DNA from: Spirogloea muscicola
Taxonomy: Eukaryota; Streptophyta; Zygnematophyceae; Spirogloeales; Spirogloeaceae
Direction: 5' to 3'
Assembly (NCBI GenBank): GCA_009602725.1
Contig: WELB01000032.1
Coordinates: forward strand, 669,958 to 701,326
DNA: 31,369 nt
The position numbers and the translations under genes are program-made. Shown in pieces: positions 656 through 18,387 of this stretch; position 1 is the stretch's first letter; each line of letters begins with the position of its first letter. Under the pieces are notes generated by a model. The model saw nothing but the letters and a program-made list of their open reading frames with translations. It was not told where the DNA came from and ran no database searches.

Positions 656-1370
656 CAGCTCCAGAAGCGGACGTAGGGCGGCTTGACAAGGCCCCCATCT
701 GTTTGCACTAGTTTTTGTTTCAACAACCAATTTGCTTCAGTTGGCCACGCTTTCAGATCATGCGCCCCAGCGCGTCTTCTCACTCTTTACCCGGGCGCCG
801 CCCCTCAGCTGTTCCACCAAGTCCGGCTACCTGACCTCTGTGTGCCCACTCGTGAACACTAGTGCCCCTTGAAGAAAGTGGCTCTCTCTCTAAGGGCCAG
901 CCATGCTTTCGCCCTGCATTTCTGTTCCAGCAGCCGCATCCTTCTTTCCAATCTCTCCTAAACTAGGGGCTTCGTCTCGTGTAGGAGCATTGTTTGCACT
1001 ACCTTGCCTTGAAGCAATGTACGAACAGTGCATTGTCTTGTCTTGGCCTCCCCTGTATTCACGCGCACTGCGCACTTGCGTCTTCTCTCTCCCTCACGTC
1101 ATATTCGCTGATCTGGTACTGGGCCAATCGGGCATCAAATGCCATCAGACCCCAAAGCCCCGTTCGTCTGTGTCGGCTGAAATCAGTCCAAACATCGCTG
1201 CCGACCAGGCAGGCAATTTGACTGCAGTAGATCGCAGCACACACTGTGACTTTGACGAGTCGACGTCCACCTAAGAAAGAATGTCAACGGTCTCATCAAT
1301 GCCTGCCTCTAATGTCAGTGCATATACTGCCCATGCGGCAGACCTTGTCTGTCTCTCGGCCAGTGACCTA
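656..1370. other. Intergenic, no gene seen
   Basis: Mixed-composition spacer downstream of importin-9. Short open frames exist on both strands, but none has a recognisable motif or a consistent splice structure. Confidence 0.4.
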
Positions 1371-1375
1371 TTACA
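1371..1375 (-). terminator. TGTAA polyadenylation motif of importin-9
   Basis: The minus strand reads TGTAA 54 bases past the importin-9 stop codon. TGTAA is the known polyadenylation signal of green algae and usually lies within a few hundred bases of the stop. The sequence shows the motif and its spacing; its use is inferred. Confidence 0.55.
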
Positions 1376-1428
1376 CAGTTCACATTCAATAGATCGTCTT
1401 TGAAGTCTGGTCAGATTTCAAAGAGACT

Positions 1429-4400
1429 TCAATGATCCTCAACAGTAGCCAGGAGCACCTTCTGTTCCAGTGGTGTGAGGTCCTGCACAAGCCGTCTCCA
1501 TGCCTTCTCAACCATAAGCTGGTCATTCCTGGGTGCCTTGATTCGCACAATTGGCTGCAGACCACGAGGTGGTGCATGGAGCCTAACCTGACATAGTGCT
1601 TCGAAGGAAGGCGGACTTTGTCTTGCTAGGGTCCGCAGAAGCTCCCTCAACCACTCCACCAGGTCAATCTGTCAGAAATGGCACCAATGCGCGTCAGATA
1701 CTAGGACTTCCAAGTATACGTTCGGGGCTGACTTAACTGCCGATTGGTATACCATATGTTTCCGCTGCCCAGAACGTCGACAAGCACTTTAACCAGGCGG
1801 GCTGTGGCTCTTAACAAAGGAAACGGAGAGGAGCTGTGCTTGGAAGCTGCAAGTCATGCACCTGGTTGATAGGATCACGTGCAGCATCCACGTCATCAGC
1901 ATCAAGATCTAACGTGTCCACCTGGAGGGGCTGCTTGTGGATGTGCAAGGTGTCTCAGCTTTCGACCTTCTATGAACGGAACAAAGACAGCATATTGTGG
2001 GTCTGCAGTCGGCTGCTTCAGCATCTACTCAATGTATCGGGGTATGAAAGGCTAGATTAGGTCACCTCGTCATTCTGCACTGCCTGGTATGTACCAGACA
2101 TATGTGCATAAAGTGACTCATTGTTGGAGGTGACAGCAACTTCTGCAGGATCGAACTCTACACTATCATCGTTGCCTTCTCCCACTTCCTCCCACTCGTC
2201 GTCGTCCTGGGCCACCAACCACTATCAACAAAGGTCTTTATAGCCATCTCATTACAGATAGGGAGAAACGGCAAGAAAGAGGATTTGAGAGCATTGCCTG
2301 CTAATATACAGTATCCTGGCCTACTCTCCTGGCTGCCACAGAGAAACAGCGCTCTTCTCAAAGGTGTAGGGATACAGACCTGTTCATTGTCATCAGGTCC
2401 ACCTTGCTCACTCATCTCGAGTAGCGTTGCAAGCAGCAAAGACAGGATCTGCAAATACAGCCATCATCTGCTTCCCTGTCAGACTGCTAGACACACAGCA
2501 GGGTCTAACTCGTGGAGCACTGATGGCACACAGCTACACCTGAATGCAACAGAACAGCATGTCAGTGTTCGTCAATTCATACCTTGCTAGGAAGTGCAAC
2601 ACTTGACCACTGTACTGGGGCCAACTTTGCTCTTGACCTCGTCAAGATTCCAGCCATGGGACTCTGCATGCACAAACACAGTTGTGCTGTAGGCCTTGAC
2701 ATTAGAGCTTCTGGAGTGCAAGCAAGCGCAAGCACACAGAGAGTGCAAGCAAGCAGCAGATGCCCTGCTAGAAAGAGCAGAAGACAAACAAGCAGGCCCA
2801 GCTCTATGCTGGACGATGAGGCATGTCCACACAGAGCAACTTCGTTCTTAGCCAGCCCCCTAGCCATCTTGCTTCTACATACCTCAAGTAGTCGGCCTTG
2901 TACTTGCACTGAAGCCAGACGAGGATCTCCAGATGCTAGTAGCAGCGCCAGAGCTGTTGTGCTCACCTTTATCTGGTAGGCGCCTTGTATGTCACCTGTC
3001 ATGAAGTTGGAGTTCTTCCTTGTCATGAAGCCAATGTCAGGATCCACAAGCTTCGCATATTTAAGGACCTTCTTTCTCACCATAGTTTTTTGTCGGCAGG
3101 GTGGTATTTGTCAAACTATAATTTAGTACCTTGGAAGTGAGTCCACGTAGACATTACAAATGAGAGTGCACTTGTTTGACCTTCCATTGATACTGCTGCC
3201 AATAGGGTGACAAACTCCCCAATGGCTGGTGCGCTCATGTGCACCTTGTCGAAGCACAACCATCATGTGTGAATATGAATGGTAGCTAGGACAGTTGTAC
3301 AAGCCTTCTTGTGCCAATGAGCCATTAGTGCATCTGAGGTACAGGTTTCGCGACCATGTGGATGGTGCAGTAACAGCGAGGGCGTTTCAATTTGCTAGCT
3401 TGTCTGCAGGTGATTGATCTGCTTCGGTAATAGGAGTAGAGGCAAAAGCATGACACTGATGGCAGAAGCTGGTGCAGAATGACACAAGAGACTGGAGACG
3501 AGGCCTGGCTCGCAATACCCACTCTTACCAAGCGAGAAAAGACGAGTAATAGAGATGTTGTTACAGAGGGCATCTGTGAGGTTGCCAATCGACCAATGAC
3601 AGCCCTGACGAGAGCCGGCAGATGGGGTGCTAAGTGATGGGGCAACCTCAACACGAGCTGATTGACATAGTCTCCAGCAAAAAGAGAGGCTGAGCAGTCA
3701 AGCCCCGGGTCCAGGAGCCTACATTACAAGGAATTGTTAGCAAGTATCAGGCACGAAAGCTGAGCAAGGGTCGTGTTAAATTTAAAGCCCTCATTTGGAA
3801 AGAAGTGACAGAGTGAATCTTGCAGGAGCAACTTGCCCACTGTTCTTGTTTCTCATCAAAACATATACTGCAAGAAGCGCGTGTCAGTTCACCTGACAGC
3901 AACTTCGAGCAGTGTGCTCATGACCTGATGAGAAGTCTCATTGCTGTCCAGCAGAGCAGGACCCCCTTGTCTAACAAGCATGGCCAAGCACTCTGCTCCA
4001 TCCTGCACAGTTGCCACGGTCCTGCAGTTCAGTGGAAAGTCGGCGTCTTGATTGAAACTTGAATCTATGCTTATCTCTCAGAAGCCATGCACAAGTACAA
4101 CAGCAAGTACAACAGCTGGCCTATCCTCTGTATCCTGATCAAGAGTGAACAGGCGCATACTGTTGCATGCGATGAATGCTCACCTGGAGAATTGCGTGAT
4201 CCTCACTGTGCAGGAGGAGAAGCGTCAAAGGTTGGAAGACAGCTGGCTGAATTGCACATATATGATGGAGCTGCAACTTCTGCCGCAGGATCAGCCATAA
4301 CGGATGGCCACAATGTTAAAGATCGAAGACTCAGCTTTCATTCTGCCAATGTGTAAGATTGCCTTACAAGCTTCATGATCAACCAGCAGATTAGCAGCGC

Positions 4401-7400
4401 ATTGGTGATGAGCACCTGATATGCCTTGCACCATATAGTGAAGTCATGCTATGAGCTACATAGGTCATGATGTTTATGCTATTCCTGAGCGAGCATCAAT
4501 TGTTGCATTGGCAGCGTACTTTCAGCAGCATAGTAAGAAGACTGCAGGCCCCAGCTAAGGAACTCGAGGAATGCTGCTCAGGCTGTCATAGCAGATACAT
4601 CCACACGTCAAGAATGCATGCGAAGGCTTAGTACAGCCACATGCAGCAGCTCACAGATGCCAATCTCTGTACATTTCATAAGTGGAGTGCAGAATGCAGT
4701 GCAGAAATTATGCAGATTGATTATATAGTGTACCTTGCTCAGAACCTTTTGCAGACTTGGAAGCACACGGTGGAGGATAGGCTCCAGACATTCAGGCACC
4801 GCAGCTACAGCCTGTCAGCGCGTCTCAACTGATATACTAGTAAGTGCTTCATTGACTTCTCGTTCTCCCTAGGTACTTTCTTTGTTCAATTGCTTGGCCA
4901 GACAAGGCAAGGCTCGGCTCATGACATCCCACCGAGGAAGATGAGTGCAAGAAATGGCAGAAGAAGTAAGTAGCAGCAAACACCCACAATAATGACTACT
5001 CAGCACACACCTCAAGAACTTCCAGGGCATCAATGCTGATCAACGGGTCATTGATATATTGAGCCCAAATTTCCAGCACTACTGGCACTACAGCTCCTTC
5101 CATTTGGAATGCTGTGCTTGCATCTGCAATAAAAATCACAAGCTGACTGAACGCTTTGTGACTGATAGGTGTGTACACTACCGAACTGTCAAAATCAGAC
5201 TACTCTCACAGCAGTAGACTCTCTGCTATCTTGCCACTCAAAGTCTCATGCATGCTAAGCTCTACAAGTATACCTGATCTTATTATTGCTGTCAAGGCTT
5301 CCAATGCGAGGTGCAATGCGTCCTCAGAAAGCTGTGCAAGTGGAGGTGCACGCAAGCAGGCAAAAGAGAAAGCTTATGTGAGACGAGTATCATGAGAGAC
5401 TCAGATATAATACTTATTGCTATGCCAATGACTATGAACAGATAGCCTGCAATTGCTCCTCCAGGGTACTACACTCCTTGCCTATCAAGTGTCCTTCGAT
5501 GTGAGCAAAATTTCCGTTTCAGCTCTTCAGCATGCCTGGGCGACCAAAGAAAGAGCATTCTAATACCTGCGTGAGAAATGGGCACAGAGAATAGTACAGT
5601 GTCTTGAGTTGCAAACCAAGGCTGGCTGCATCAACCTTATCCAGGACCTTGGTGATGGCTCTACATGCCCCAACCTTTGTCAATGTTGACCTGCAGACAA
5701 TCTCCCCAAGTCAGACTGAGCAAAGGCAAGGGGATGAAAGCTGGACAAAGAGGTGAAGCTTAAATGGTACCATGTGGCTCAGTTCTTCTTAAGCGAGTAC
5801 TCTTCTCAAATCTCCTGTGATGGTTCCTTACATGACTCACCCCTGAGACATGAGATGGGCGTTTGCTGCTTCAAGAATTACTGTTGCCCTCACTTTATCA
5901 ATCTGCAATAAATATGTTGCATTCTGGGATGAGGAACAATACCAAGTCTGACTGCTAATGTGGATGAAAGAAACATAATCATAGTGCGTTGTAACCTGCG
6001 TCCATGGATTTTCAGAGTATATACCTCGGCATGGACAAATCAGATTATGCTAGCTGGCATTCACTGTGCACCTTGTACACATCAGCGTATACATCCTTTT
6101 GCCTGCCCAAAAATTAGATTGGTGCGCTGACTAGTGACAATCGCAGAAAAGCATTCCTGTCAGACCTACCCCGTCAACAAGCTTAGCAATCAATCCAAAG
6201 GCACGAGCCTGCAGAAAGGGATACATCTGCTTGCCTGCAAAGAGGATTGCCACACCAGACGTACATTACTATGTCCTTCTTGCTACATAGAGCCATGCAT
6301 CCAGATCCATCTGCAACGGAGATGAGACATTGAGCCAATCTTTGCTGACCTCATCAGAATATGTGTTCGCCCTAAACATGGCATAGCGTCGATGGATCGT
6401 GATGGGAGGCAGGACCAACCTGAGCTTAAGTCAGACAGTACGTCATCCACAAGTGTGGTGACCTCAAAGTCCTGCAAAAAAAGCCATTGATTGAACAGAT
6501 TAGACCATATTAAGCACCATGAGGATGCTTCTTCAACAGATGACTTTTTCTCTTTAAGACCTGCTCCTCCTAAATTCCAAAAATGACATGCCGACCTTCT
6601 CCTCCACAAGTGCCTCCGCAATTGTGCCAAGCCCCAACATTGCAGCCTCTCGGATCTGCCACACGCAATGATGGTCAAATCACACCTCGACGCGAATCAA
6701 GCAGCTTCAGTGTGCTAATGGGAAATACTTGCAATGACAGATCTTGGGGACAAGCTGAGACTTGAACCGTAAATGACTCAGCTTCTGACTCGTCTCATCC
6801 GCAGCTGCGGTTGCAGCTGTAGCTGAGTATGTCTCTTTGAAGATGTGAAAAACAGCTTAATTGCAGAAGTTGGCATTGCAATCAGGCTGACGACCTGAGG
6901 ATGTAATGAGAGCAGCTTTACCTTCCACCAGTCTTTGTGCCCTGAATGGCTCAGAGCTCTGGCTTCCTGAAATCGTTGCAAGGCTGCTGCAGTGATGTGC
7001 TTCACAATCACTGAGCCATGGTTCTCCACAAGCTCTTCAAGAAGCAAACAACCTGCAGAGCATAAAAAACACATAAGTAGGAGCTAGCTGATATGGGTGG
7101 CATACAGATTGCAGTCTTGACTGTGTGGCTGTGTGGCTCCAGCCACAAGACTGCTCACCTGAAACCCGACAGCTGTATGCCTCGTTATCCTCATCAGCAA
7201 CATATTGGTTGGGGTCATTAGACCATTCAATGATCTGCACAGAAAACAGATCACTGCTCTGTCAACCTGGTCGTATTCTAAGAGCCTGGCTTTTGTTGCA
7301 CTTTCCGACTATCTTGCCATACTACTGCCCTCTTAGGGCAAGAGAACATTCGAAATTACTCTTTGAGCAGCCGAGCAGCAGATCAAGCAAAGCAGGGTAA

Positions 7401-10400
7401 TAACTGTGCATAGCTCAGAAGACTAGGGCACAGCAAACTGGGCACACTAGCCATTTCTTGATCAAAGGCATTGGTTAACAATAGGACCTAGTCATTGTAG
7501 ACAACTGCTCCCTTGCCAAAAGCAGTGAAGCTCGTACAGGCGGTGTATACCTGCTCCTCAGTCATCTGGAGGTAAACGAATGTGTAATTCACGAGTTCCG
7601 GAAGGCCTTGCTCAACCAACTAACACAGCAGAATGACATGTACAGACAATTGATCAGACAAAGGGATTTGATTTCAATATTTTGCTAAGTAGCTCAGCAC
7701 AACGCCCATTACTGCTCAGAAAACGGCATGTGCCAGCTATATTCTCTGCTCTCTTTACAAGACTCTGCTGATACTCCAACCCTGAGAATAGGTAAGGTGA
7801 CATGCTTTGTTCATAGTAACGCCTTACACTGAAGTATCGTTGATGGCATGTCACACTCAAGAGGAACTCAAATACCTGCAAGTTGACAGAAAGAAGGCCC
7901 TCAGCAGCCTGGAGCCTCATCATTAGCTTTGCATCACCAAAGTAGAAAGATAACGAAGTATCAAGCAATGATTGTTTGCAAGTCTTCATATGTAACAGAG
8001 CTTCAAGCTCAAAATGCTGTTACAGCAACTAAATTTGCAGATTGAAGACCAGATTGTGGCAGATGCTGTTTATGTGCAGAACAAAAATCTAAGAAAGGTA
8101 CACAATGACTGGGCCTTGCATACTTGACTAGGCCTTGCATACTTGAATCATGAGCACTTCGAGTCCCTGCTCACTCCCATCTGCGTCGTCAAGATTGCCA
8201 TGAGTATCCTCCAGGCCAGCGACTGCACCTCTCTCATACACACAGCTGCCACTTGTGAACGTCTGCCAAACTGATTCCAATACCCCTGCTTCAATGACAA
8301 AGCGTCCAAGCTCATGGACTGTCAGAGAGTCTTGTGAGGATTTTCAATAATCCTGGGCGAATCATGCTATGCAAAAGCAGAGGCTCGAGAGACTACCTGG
8401 TAGATGCTCTGCAGAAAGCCTTGGGAAGTTCTGAACAATCTGGAATAAGCACTTGATGACCTATTCATAGAAATTGTCAGGACAAGAGAAAAATCAGGAG
8501 AAATATCATGCCCATGCTGCCAGGCCATGCTGCCAAGTCCTGGTTGTTAATAGCGCATCAATGTTGCTCACCTGCATCCGCGTTGCCCATTCTGTAGGAG
8601 AATCAGATGGCAGAGGTGGTGTAAGCATCGAACAGAAGTATTTGATAAGCTGCGGTAGCACAGGAGCCATGAGGTCCCTTATCTCTTCCTGTCAGAGGAG
8701 TAATAGAGAGAACACGCACTCATTTAGGACATCGTCCTATAGCTGCCAAATATTGCCAGGAAAATTCCTGTTGACTACGTCCATTACGTCTAACCTTGAT
8801 CAGCTTTATCAGTCATTCAGCTGATATAGCAGTTGACAATGGCAATTGTATCTGGCTAGGTTGCTTCAGCCCACGAATCTATTCTTACATTCTGGCCTGA
8901 AGTAGCCTCTGTAGGACACTAATAAGGGTCTAACACAATTCCTTCCATTAGCTTACAACTAATATTTGCAATTGTGGGGCTGTGTAATTGTACATAATAG
9001 CACCTGGTAGACTCCGCTCATGACTCCCAGCATGGCTATGCAATTTCGAAGAACATATAAGGCTCGCTGACGTACAGTTGCTGGATAGACCTGCGCCCAC
9101 ACAGATTCAAACCATATTTTATGCCATCGAGCGGAACATGAAAGCCACTCAGAAAGTTGACCAAAGCCCTCTTAGGAATAGTCTCAATAGGTAAGAAGGT
9201 ACCTGGTCACTAGTGAGTACGGAATATAGTACAGGGAATAGTTTTGGCACCAACAATGGCAACTGCGTATCATCGATGTCATCAGACAACAGAGCCAAGC
9301 ACTGAAGAGCTCCGTGTACTACCACATCGTAAAACAGATCAGAAGGCCATACATGAAATCTTCAAGTCTTTGTGCTTCAAAACAAGCTGACAGAGAAGCA
9401 TTATCCCAACTTAGAGCAAGAATCAGGCAGCTGTTTGATTGATTGAAGCTGATGGACAAGCAAGCAAAACCCAACCCCTGTATCATTAGCAGGGAGTGGT
9501 GAAAAGATGACAAGCAGGAGGGCAAGTGCACCTCGTAGTTGATTGCTTGGATCTGCAATTGACTCGACGAGGATTGGCATCAGCTCAGGCCACTCCTGTG
9601 GCCAGTCGAAGTGTGCAATGGCAATGATAGCCATGCCAACTGCAGTCTGCAGTCTTCTCTCACGAAATTCCAGAGCAGCTGGCAACAGTGCCTTCATAAT
9701 GGCCTATACAGAATAAAATATAGATTGAGTCCCCTCTCAGCATGCAACTGAGACATGCTGATTGGAGGAGATGACAGCAGCTCGTAAGTTGATCAATGAA
9801 ACACAATCTGGCTGGAGAGGACAATGACAAGGTTTTGTGAGGGGATTATTTTGCTTTCTACTGGATGTGAAAAGACTGAAGAACATGCGTATTGTATGAG
9901 AAGCTGCAGCTTGACATTTGGATCATATTGAAGAAGGCAATGCTACTGTTGTTTTACTTTGTCTTCTGCAGATACACTTGGGGGCCTATTGTGCTCATCG
10001 CCTTGATGCCAGTGCTCCTTGACGTACTGCTTCACCAACACAGCAGCTAGGTGTACAAGAGTCAAGCGAATGCAGGGACCAGTGCAGATATGGCGGCCAA
10101 GTATATTACTGCCCCGGAGGTTTGCCAGCTTGTTTCAAAGAAAGACAAATTAGGCAATAAATTACTCAGAAGTCAAGAAGGATATCTGCCGAATATCAAC
10201 ATCCACGCCTCGCAGAGTCGCAATCCTCGTCAAGGCAACCCCATAACCTGGCAGAAAAGGATGCATGATCAATCAGCTATTGACAGAGTTGTAATACATG
10301 TGACAATGTGAATGTACCTCAGGCTCTTCAGCTCCCTGGTTGCTTGACATCGTTGCTAAGATCCTGTGTCGCTAGGTTGCTTAGGGTCCGGCCAAAACCA

Positions 10401-10586
10401 AGGCAAGCCAGCTCGAGCTCCTCAACAACCAACCAGTGAATGCAGTTCACCTTGCTGCTCACTAGCAGCCGCCAGCGCCTGCTCGGCAGTCCGGCGTGTG
10501 ACCTGGTCGGCAGACATGGTGGCCTCCAGGCGCTGCAGGAGCCACAATCTGCCGTCGTCCGCCAGCTCCGCCATGGCAGCTGCCAT
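1429..10586 (-). CDS. IPO9: Importin-9 (importin-beta family nuclear import receptor), 33 exons
   Basis: HEAT-repeat karyopherin that carries cargo (in animals, histones H2A-H2B and ribosomal proteins) into the nucleus under Ran control. Exons in coding order: 10586-10451, 10247-10186, 10050-9958, 9703-9532, 9318-9203, 9090-9004, 8688-8572, 8460-8397, 8318-8143, 7875-7828, 7619-7551, 7234-7159, 7052-6922, 6655-6596, 6471-6420, 6234-6170, 5902-5841, 5690-5567, 5331-5274, 5123-5011, 4811-4734, 4582-4520, 4270-4184, 4002-3893, 3718-3529, 3244-3130, 2995-2883, 2663-2583, 2448-2380, 2206-2066, 1921-1862, 1668-1588, 1518-1429. Phases agree throughout and sum to 3,159 bases (1,052 aa; human protein about 1,041). 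Landmarks: importin-beta N-terminus LWLLQRLEATMSADQ; AVGMAIIAIAHFDWPQEWPE; VNYTFVYLQMTEEQ; ILTRSRAKLAP; the acidic insert DDDEWEEVGEGNDD. Exon 23 may start at 4279. Start chosen at the first ATG; a second in-frame ATG lies at 10574. Intron 2 is AT-AC, all others GT-AG. Confidence 0.95.
10051..10185 (-). other. AT-AC U12-type intron (intron 2 of importin-9)
   Basis: Exon 2 ends in codons for ...DVDIRQ at 10186 and exon 3 resumes with LAAVLVKQYVKEHW at 10050, an uninterrupted importin-9 sequence in phase 0. The 135-base segment between starts ATATCCTTCT, matching the U12 5' splice consensus ATATCCTT at eight of eight positions, and ends TACAC, giving an AC 3' terminus. A branch-site match CGCTTGAC (consensus TTCCTTRAC) places its A at 10062, 11 bases before the intron end, inside the U12 range. 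No GT-AG pair joins these exons in phase. No transcript evidence is available. Confidence 0.85.
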
Positions 10587-11047: not shown

Positions 11048-13073
11048 ATGGCTGGCCCGTTCCTTCAAAGTGAGCCGAAAGGCAGACGACATAGTAGCGT
11101 ACAGGAACGCCGGCTGTCCAGGCTCCGCGCAGGTCACGGCCAGCTCCCGGGGGAGCCTGCGGCTGCCGCCGCCGGAGGCGGCGCGTGCTCCTGCCAGGTG
11201 GAAGGGCGGCCCGCCATGGAGCTCCTGCGGGGCCTCTGCGACGACCTGCTGGTTCTGAAGACCATGTGGTTCTCCAAGATCAGCGGCGACACGCACAAGG
11301 CGCGGCTCGAGTCCTTCGACGGGCCCCAGGCCCACGCCTGTGAGCGCTCCCCTCCCTTCTTCGCGGCACTACTGCCTATGCTGCTGGATGAAGTGATCCA
11401 TGCTAGAAGCACTCCTTCAGTGTGATACTTAAAAGGCACTGACAGAACAGGGGGGTCAGAGCAGGTTGTCAGCTTACTCGAGTGTGCAGCACATTCTCAA
11501 GCTGGCGCTTGACTTTTCCCCAGCGTTCCAAACGAGAGACTAGCGTAATGTACGATAGGGTGTTCACAAACTTCTGGGAATCCAGTAGATATGCGCAGCT
11601 ACAGTCATCGAGCAGGAAGAAGTCAGCATGCTAATTTAAGCTGCTACAATCGGCACCAATCCCTGCTGACTCTTTGGCTTGCCAAACACGTATGTCATGC
11701 TTGAACCGTGTGATTTTCACATTCCAGTCGATCTGAGGAATTCATGCACCTTGCTCTGCTGGTGCCGTTGTGCAGATGATCGCTTCCGAGCGAACTTCTT
11801 ACATGGCAGGCGACCCATGCTGCAGGCATGTGCCGCTGAGGTCCAGGCAATGCAGGACACGTCAGGACTGGTCTGGGTGGACCTGGGCGGCGGGACAGCT
11901 GAGAATGTGGAGATGATGGCTGACTACATGGACCTTTCCTTGTTCGAGAGGATCTATGTTGTAGACATCTGCGGCCCTCTTTGTGAGGTAGCAAGCAAGA
12001 AAGCCAAGCAGCGCGGGTGGAAGAATGTGGAAGTAGTGGAGGCCGACGTCTGCGAATTTGTCCCTGCAACTTCAACAGCCAAATTGATCACATTTTCGTA
12101 CTCTTTGTCAAGTATGTCAGCTCCACGAAGGGGGCTTCGCTCCTGGCCGCTCTGTCTTTTCGTGTGGCCCAGCTAGCGTTTGTATGGGACTCAGAAGAAA
12201 CTCTTTGAGCATGACCAGAGGCCATTAGCAGAGAGTAAGAGAGAGCATCTAGCAGCTATGTGGCACTTTCAGAAGGCTTCAAGCATGCCCGTGTACAATA
12301 GCAGCAGACACTAGCTCTCAAGATTTAAAGAGAGCTCACACTTGAGAGTACATGACGTGTTGGTTTGAGACTGGCACACACATTGACCAACTCATGGATG
12401 GGTGTTGCTTATGCAGTGATACCCCCCTTCATGGATGCAGTGGATAAGGCACTTGGCTACTTGGACCCAGCAGGGTTGGTTGGAGTGGCAGACTTCTACA
12501 CATCAGCCAAATTTGATGAGGCACCACGGCAGCACAGCTTTGTGACCAGGTGGTTTTGGCGAGCCATATTTGACCTGGATGGCATCGATCTGGGCCCCGA
12601 TCGCAGGGCTTATTTAGAACATCAACTCTCTAGAGGTGAGTGCATGAATCTCTAGTAACCCAGGCAACAACCCCCACAACTGACCTGATCTTCATATTGG
12701 CAGCTTGCTTGGCTTTGCTGTAATCACTAGCAAGGCACAATAGCAGTGCTACTTGCAGTACAGGGAATTCAAGCTTGCCTCTAGTGGCCTCTGAAGTTGC
12801 CAAAAAATGATATGTTCCATATTCACCGGACAGTAATGAGTCAAGCCCAAAGGGGTACGCTAGTCTTTGACATGAAACCCTACATCAAAGATGACCTTGT
12901 GTGCCCTCAATCACTAAGCATGTTGTCTCTGACCAATTGTGCACGCTGCTATTGCAGTTTATGAAGTAAATAGAAGTGGGCGCATCCCATATGTCCCCTT
13001 CTTGAGAGCTCCATACTACATCTGGTTAGGACGCCGTGACAACTCTGGTAGGTCACAAAGCAATGGTCAATGA
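11048..13073 (+). CDS. BtaB-type betaine-lipid (DGTS) N-methyltransferase, lacking a BtaA domain
   Basis: SAM-dependent methyltransferase that N-methylates diacylglyceryl-homoserine to DGTS, the betaine membrane lipid of many algae. Exons: 11048-11339, 11776-12111, 12417-12635, 12958-13073, all with matching phases. Seen in order: HKARLESFDGPQAHAYDRFR, the glycine-rich SAM motif VWVDLGGGTAENVEMMADY, IYVVDICGPLCEVA, ITFSYSLSMIPPF, WFWRAIFDLDGIDLGPDRRA, and the linker IPYVPFLRAPYYIWLGRR. In Chlamydomonas BTA1 this linker leads into the BtaA half (aminocarboxypropyl transferase). Here the frame stops nine codons after the linker (TGA 13071-13073), or after ten if a 51-base GT-AG intron at 13048 is removed. 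No BtaA motif follows before the next gene. The start could instead be the ATG at 11216; an open frame from 10917 in another phase lacks ATG and is not included. Confidence 0.85.
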
Positions 13074-17530: not shown

Positions 17531-18255
17531 TCAGAGCTTTGCTGGTGCACCAATTTTGAAGACAACCTTGCCAATCACTTTGCGATGCAGCAGTGCTTGA
17601 AACGCCATGTCCGCCTGCCAGTAAAGGACACAGATCTATGAAAGGCCAGCTAGCAGATGCCGATGAAGTGCACAGTGGTCTTTCTAAAGAGGCAGGCCGT
17701 TCAGATGCCATGCCATTTACCTCAGATAGCTCGTAGCAATGAGAGACGTTGATGGTGAGGTAACCCTCTGCCAGCCACTGGAGAAGCTGTGTCATACTGT
17801 GGTGCAGGACGGACGGGTTGTTCGTCATATAGCTTCCCCAAAATAGCCCATGGATTGTCAGATTCTGCCACAAACCCAACCATGTAAGACCTTCCACTAA
17901 TCCACACAACATGCTTGAAGAAGGCGTACACCAGCTCATTAAGAATAAGCTGACTTGCAGCTTCAAGGTGACTGAAGTGACTAGGCAATAAGTTACCTTT
18001 ACCAAGACAATGTTGGCCTGTATGCTCGGTATGTCTCCGCTGGCAAAGCCAATGATTACGACCTGAGCGCCCCAGTTGAGGAGCCTCAAAGCCTCCTTGA
18101 ACTGAGACCCTCGCACTGGATCGTAGAGAACGTCAACCCCCCTCAGCTTTCTGACTCGAAGGAACTCTTTGACGCTTTTGTGCAGGTTCACTTTGCCAGT
18201 ATCAAGAGCACAATCAGCTCCAATGCTCTCAAGCAGAGCCACCTTCTCCTGTCCT
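17531..18255 (-). pseudogene. 5'-truncated MDR family quinone oxidoreductase
   Basis: Zinc-free medium-chain reductases of the quinone oxidoreductase class reduce quinones or enones with NADPH. Three intact exons remain: 18255-17997, 17864-17721, 17614-17531, with matching phases. Seen: GQEKVALLESIGADCALDTG, GVDVLYDPVRGSQFKEALR, VVIIGFASGDIPSIQANIVL, the conserved K-NL junction before GLFWGSYM, the helix with HSMTQLLQWLAEG, and the ending ADMAFQALLHRKVIGKVVFK. About 150 residues are missing: the N-terminal catalytic domain and the Rossmann AGGVG motif. Only about 640 bases separate the first remaining exon from the CENP-C start on the other strand, and they contain a retroelement tail. No stop or frameshift is seen in what remains, so it is either a young truncated gene or one whose front exons lie elsewhere. 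Confidence 0.75.
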
Positions 18256-18387
18256 CTGTTATCACAGCGGGTGCAGGACGTAAGTCTATTGAGGGGTAGC
18301 GTGCGCAGCCTAGACAGCTCGTGAATTAAAACTGACACAATGTTGCCCTGTCACTTGTGGGTCAGTGGACTTGAGGTTCATAACCTA

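Follow-up and report, generated by a model that had tools for sequence, protein, structure and literature searches.

Green algae have been stated to lack U12 splicing, in a source whose intron survey covers Chlamydomonas (PMC2846911), and a 2023 study has counted minor introns in two algae, 166 in Chara braunii and 110 in Klebsormidium nitens (PMC10639083). The main text of that study names no Spirogloea, Mesotaenium or Penium and contains no word that begins with 'Zygnem'. In the literature that we covered, from which supplements and most subscription papers were excluded, minor splicing was not reported for any chlorophyte, nor for any zygnematophyte by name. As to the RNAs, a human minigene assay is described in which GG14/15 of U6atac pairs with CC5/6 of the 5' splice site, and in which the change of CC5/6 to GG leads to defective U12-type splicing; use of the normal sites returns only with a matching change of U6atac, partly with the mutant GG14/15CC and nearly fully when U11 GG6/7CC is added (PMC4980772).

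Judging from its sequence, a segment of the importin-9 gene within the stretch of DNA analyzed here (the window, 31,369 nt) is very probably a U12-type AT-AC intron, carried by a streptophyte green alga that is most likely a Spirogloea-like zygnematophyte and presumably removed by the minor spliceosome. The intron termini, the 5' splice site, the position of the intron in the protein and the genome copies of U11, U12 and U6atac are directly visible. The initial annotation had placed the intron at 10051-10185, which proved exact (Table 1). On the minus strand the upstream exon ends in ...CGGCAG, the intron runs from ATATCCTTCTTG... to ...TTCGCTTGACTCTTGTACAC, and the next exon begins with CTAGCTGCTGTG... 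The spliced peptide, DIRQ joined to LAAVLVKQYVKEHW, crosses the junction without a gap when aligned with 10sm_D, a PDB chain that bears the name Importin-9 (E 1.2e-21), where the query dirqlaavlvkqyv is matched to AIRQLASVILKQYV of the chain.

Table 1. Coordinates in the window of the U12-type intron, its splice signals and the surrounding gene
Feature	Position	Strand	Basis
U12-type AT-AC intron, 135 nt, phase 0	10051..10185	-	Importin-9 protein continuity, enumerated alternatives, motif scan
5' splice site ATATCCTT, +5 = C	10178..10185	-	8/8 to consensus quoted in PMC2426677
Branch-site motif CTTGAC; predicted U12 pairing leaves A unpaired	10061..10066	-	Motif scan and duplex prediction
3' splice site AC	10051..10052	-	Window sequence
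Upstream exon, last codons D-I-R-Q	10186..10247	-	Importin-9 alignment, rough gene model, enumeration
Downstream exon, first residues L-A-A-V-L-V-K-Q-Y-V	9958..10050	-	Importin-9 alignment, rough gene model, enumeration
Importin-9 gene, approximate span, start codon 10586	1315..10586	-	Rough gene model (final iteration), IBN_N domain

The N-terminal peptide of the gene contains an IBN_N domain (42.5 bits, cut-off 21), and the 3' end of the gene is uncertain, as the first iteration of the rough gene model placed it at 1429 and the final one at 1315. In this model 49 of the 50 introns start with GT and one with AT; the model over-splits the gene and grants AT-AC introns a fixed bonus, so this count is not independent evidence for the AT intron. 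The figure of 31 other introns, given earlier, was not exactly reproduced. One of the GT-AG introns of the model (window 6103-6224, minus strand) has the 5' end GTATCCCTTT and lacks a U12-like branch site; it may have descended from a U12 intron or be a product of chance. Elsewhere in the window, exons on the plus strand at 11212-12640 encode a methyltransferase-like stretch (WVDLGGGTAENVEMM), in a gene that we take to be a betaine-lipid synthase, and two single exons of this gene gave no hit in Pfam. A zinc-binding dehydrogenase (quinone oxidoreductase-like, Pfam PF00107) lies on the minus strand at 17564-18260.

The splice signals of the intron were described beforehand as a complete U12-type 5' splice site and a CTTGAC branch site near the intron end, and both were recovered. 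The 5' splice site agrees with ATATCCTT (RTATCCTT class) in all eight positions and is followed by a C at position +9. The branch-like motif CGCTTGAC agrees with TCCTTRAC in six of eight positions. It lies 10 nt from the 3' end of the intron, just within the range of 10-15 nt given for U12-type branch sites (PMC2426677). The predicted duplex between the branch motif and the U12 of the alga amounts to -7.4 kcal/mol, versus -13.0 kcal/mol for the consensus branch site, and that between U11 and the 5' splice site to -5.3 kcal/mol.

Genes for the minor spliceosomal RNAs were sought with Rfam models in the assembly that contains the window (153.1 Mb, 471 contigs). Four loci were recovered for U11 (59.6, 57.2, 52.4 and 45.8 bits; cut-off 39), three for U12 (81.1, 80.1 and 80.1 bits; cut-off 53) and three for U6atac (RF00619; 85.5, 85.5 and 83.2 bits; cut-off 33), the latter in a search that scored the best candidates (46 of 5506). 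Nine of these ten loci (L001-L003 and L005-L010) carry the element TATCCCA at a fixed distance upstream, at -76/-77 in three of the four U11 genes and all three U12 genes and at -68/-69 in all three U6atac genes, thus around 8 nt nearer to the start in the last; counting both strands of all ten loci, nine of the 11 occurrences of the element are at these fixed places. A loosely defined TATA-like element is found near -30. In the snRNA promoters of land plants, polymerase III genes have a shorter distance between upstream element and TATA box, a spacing code that the present arrangement resembles. Within the RNA part the three copies differ in 4 of 135 columns for U11, 3 of 161 for U12 and 6 of 117 for U6atac (gap columns and the fourth U11 locus excluded), whereas in the upstream flanks outside TATCCCA the variable columns range from 14% in the far upstream part of U6atac to 54% between -66 and 0 of the same gene; the fraction is also higher downstream of the genes, where the alignments are poor. 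Given the shared upstream element and the conservation of the RNA while the flanks vary, the U11, U12 and U6atac loci are probably working genes. The fourth U11 locus (L004, G000:C439:1913-2051; 45.8 bits) has neither TATCCCA nor a TATA-like box and has only around 141 nt in common with the remaining U11 genes, and it may be a dispersed pseudogene.

It had been proposed that the lineage keeps U11, U12, U4atac and U6atac, and this was borne out for all but U4atac, which we did not find. The U4atac model (RF00618) gave no match in the genome at E 0.001, nor in any of 14 control genomes, and again none in the genome at E 10, where 11 of the 14 control genomes showed matches below the cut-off that are attributable to chance; as 48 of 1771 candidates were scored, without a positive control, the search could easily miss U4atac and absence is not implied. 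Three pattern searches, built from complementarity to U6atac and from general U4atac features, gave 1, 3 and 10 matches versus 6, 0 and 6 in the reversed controls, none of them convincing. Rfam did not identify the single match of the first pattern (L011) as U4atac, the second pattern yielded among its three matches two that are alike and look protein-coding, and three of the ten matches of the third, which were fetched, lack an snRNA promoter element and the stem I word, the other seven having been judged from the printed letters.

The recognition sequences of U11 and U12 in the alga are canonical, and U11 retains G6 and G7. In U6atac, the box that pairs with the 5' splice site reads GAGCCGAGAG in all three copies, versus GAAAGGAGAG in the Rfam consensus, and the longer stretch around it GUGUUCGUUGAGCCGAGAGAAGGUUAGCA, versus GUGUUGUaUGAAAGGAGAGAAGGUUAGCA. 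Nucleotides 12-14 are GCC where the consensus has AAG, and nucleotides 6-8 are changed too, with no matching change in U12. In the standard register, nucleotides 11-16 form two Watson-Crick pairs and one wobble pair of six with the 5' splice site, versus five of six for the consensus, and the best duplex is predicted at -1.4 kcal/mol, versus -5.1 kcal/mol for the consensus U6atac. The box therefore does not complement the 5' splice site of the U12 type, as that of a member of RF00619 would be expected to do. U6atac thus has C14 while G6/G7 of U11 and CC of the intron are retained. We also considered whether U12 and U6atac might have changed in compensation upstream of the box, and discarded this idea, as the U12 of the alga is predicted to pair better with the consensus U6atac (-9.4 kcal/mol) than with its own (-6.6 kcal/mol). 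Searches of the viral and the prokaryotic DNA collections for U6atac-like sequences gave no match in either.

Our tentative reading, to which we would give somewhat less than an even chance, is that U6atac no longer pairs in the usual way with positions +6 to +8 while U11 and the 5' splice site have stayed canonical, in which case the site would be recognized via U11 and proteins, or via a new contact of U6atac. A competing explanation, which we consider improbable, holds that the copies in which the box is changed do not function and that a canonical U6atac resides in unassembled or masked sequence. The assembly does contain gaps and masked stretches, and the limited scoring of the family search would leave room for such a gene. 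A pattern search of the genome, however, retrieved the exact word GAGAGAAGGTTAGCA at these three loci only (besides 15 matches with one mismatch; reversed control 4), and all three retain the promoter element and the terminal T-run. Their 5' parts moreover are identical in 66 of 66 aligned positions while the flanks vary, an identity that makes them unlikely to be pseudogenes.

If U6atac has indeed given up its usual pairing, minor splicing would dispense here with a pairing on which human cells depend in the suppressor assay. In the literature covered, which leaves out most subscription papers, no such U6atac was reported. A change of nucleotide 14 in three conserved copies, with no matching change in the single known 5' splice site, would provide a natural test of the roles of U6atac and U11 in setting minor 5' splice sites, and of the idea that the contact between U6atac and the 5' splice site is free to drift as the set of minor introns shrinks, although with one confirmed intron drift and coevolution of the box are indistinguishable. 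For this reason the U6atac variant matters more than the intron itself and deserves follow-up.

With respect to the way in which the intron is removed, U11 would pair with UCCUU of the 5' splice site and U12 with the CUUGAC branch motif, each thereby defining its site, after which U6atac, together with the shared U5 and a presumed U4atac, would take the place of U11 and the minor spliceosome would excise the intron. U6atac would enter with its weakened pairing, aided by proteins and by the two pairs that are retained (U+4/A16 and C+5/G15); a different U6atac contact might serve as well. Considering the changed box, recognition of the 5' splice site probably leans more on U11 here than it does in animals and land plants.

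Two other ways of removing the segment were weighed. It might be spliced out with other ends, either GC-AG or GT-AG, the U12 motifs being due to chance, and in-frame candidates do exist: enumeration between the two exons yielded 7 GT-AG, 9 GC-AG and 20 AT-AC pairs. Among all of these the AT-AC pair 10185/10051 alone joins IRQ directly to LAAV, and every GT-AG or GC-AG alternative loses or adds residues in the conserved IRQLAAV stretch, nine being lost at the junction in the case of GC-AG 10208/10047. The earlier statement that the importin-9 sequence is continuous only when the AT-AC segment is taken out was in this way confirmed, and coding continuity fixes the termini. As to chance, ATATCCTT occurs once in the window where 0.43 occurrences are expected, a figure that falls to 0.04 per window once a branch motif and AC are attached, even before the position at the protein junction is demanded (first-order Markov, 100 windows), so that this alternative is very unlikely. 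Removal of an AT-AC intron by the major spliceosome is more improbable still, since the U2-type AT-AC introns described in PMC2831892, which show that such a class exists, have a G at +5 where the importin-9 intron has a C, the latter is of U12 type in its first eight bases and the genome contains minor snRNA genes. As read from the sequence, the AT-AC intron is real and of U12 type, in a relative of the land plants in which most of the RNA machinery is present.

The number of minor introns in this genome may be small, judging from one gap bin and from exact words. A strict-consensus GT-AG U12 pattern with a spacing of 62-92 had no match in the genome (reversed control 1), which implies that strict-consensus U12 introns are not common. 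Animal and plant sodium/proton exchangers share two U12 intron positions (PMC2426677); an exact-word scan of the gene strand, made without a gene model, revealed no RTATCCT in the three exchanger copies, one of the four exchanger loci (L026) holding 851 N.

The phylogenetic position of the host was approached via plastid genes and genome structure. A plastid contig of 56.9 kb (G000:C392, L015-L019) carries psaA and psaB, and the top three PDB matches of both products are 8htu, 9lut and 6l35 (among the best 60 of 84 sequences each), an affinity that is expressed in scores and not in a tree. For PsaB the four best entries score 1623-1627 bits, versus 1524 for 6zzx and 1519 for 6ijj. For PsaA the leading entries score 1633-1650 bits and 6ijj 1605, the same level as chains that we take to be from flowering plants (~1600), so that PsaA separates the leading entries only. 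We take 8htu, 6l35 and 7ksq to be moss entries, 6zzx to be a Chlorella chain and 6ijj a Chlamydomonas chain. The contig also encodes chlI and odpB, the latter with 370 bits to the pyruvate dehydrogenase E1 beta family. OdpB was listed among the genes that had by then not been found in Chlorophyta (PMC1781420), and it is described as having been cut out of ancestral clusters in certain prasinophytes (PMC4194372), so that it is not diagnostic by itself. On the same contig the atpF and rpoC1 frames are continuous, with no intron seen, and chlB and tilS were named by eye. A placement near Mesostigma or Chlorokybus, considered on account of these continuous frames, was set aside on the basis of the threefold duplication.

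This duplication is apparent from four sets of threefold homologous segments (L001/L002/L003, L005-L007, L008-L010 and L023-L025). The U11, U12, U6atac and exchanger loci occur in three copies each that are 82-91% identical in pairwise comparison, RNA included, over 1.6-3.5 kb, and the exchangers lie on the same contigs as the U11 genes (C42, C8 and C39), with around 3.5 kb aligned at 86-88% identity. The four sets are consistent with a recent whole-genome triplication, an event reported in Spirogloea muscicola, a zygnematophyte (PMC7994812, PMC9065682). Taken together, the plastid genes and the threefold genome indicate that the host is a streptophyte alga rather than a chlorophyte. Eight short psaA/psaB-like fragments, four of them with internal stops, were observed on C74, C93, C136, C17, C22, C36, C148 and C132; these resemble insertions of plastid DNA into nuclear sequence.

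The intron had been set against the loss reported in chlorophytes and thought informative about loss events in green algae, a link that is not supported when the best PsaA and PsaB scores, the plastid odpB and the threefold genome indicate a streptophyte host and minor introns are already on record for two streptophyte algae (PMC10639083). The intron is therefore an expected new member: it adds one streptophyte lineage close to the land plants, as anticipated by descent, and is silent on loss in chlorophytes. With Klebsormidium nitens and Chara braunii it shares the occurrence of minor splicing in streptophyte algae, whereas the lineage, judged by the threefold genome, is a different one. Like animal and land-plant introns of the U12 AT-AC type, it has the 5' splice site ATATCCTT, AT-AC termini, a branch motif around 10 nt before its end and a host gene with otherwise GT introns (according to the rough model); unlike these, it has a weaker branch motif (6/8), and its host is not one of the two algae named in the main text of PMC10639083. 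The U6atac resembles the Rfam family RF00619 in its score (85.5 bits), in the retention of GAGAGAAGGUUAGCA, of the AAGGA.GG segment and of the 3' T-run, and in hairpins that fit the model, and deviates from it in nucleotides 6-8 and 12-14, the box being GAGCCGAGAG instead of GAAAGGAGAG in every copy. With the human suppressor mutant GG14/15CC (PMC4980772) it has in common a C for G at position 14; the human mutant, however, was matched to a 5' splice site with GG at +5/+6, whereas the alga combines CC in its 5' splice site with a G at position 15.
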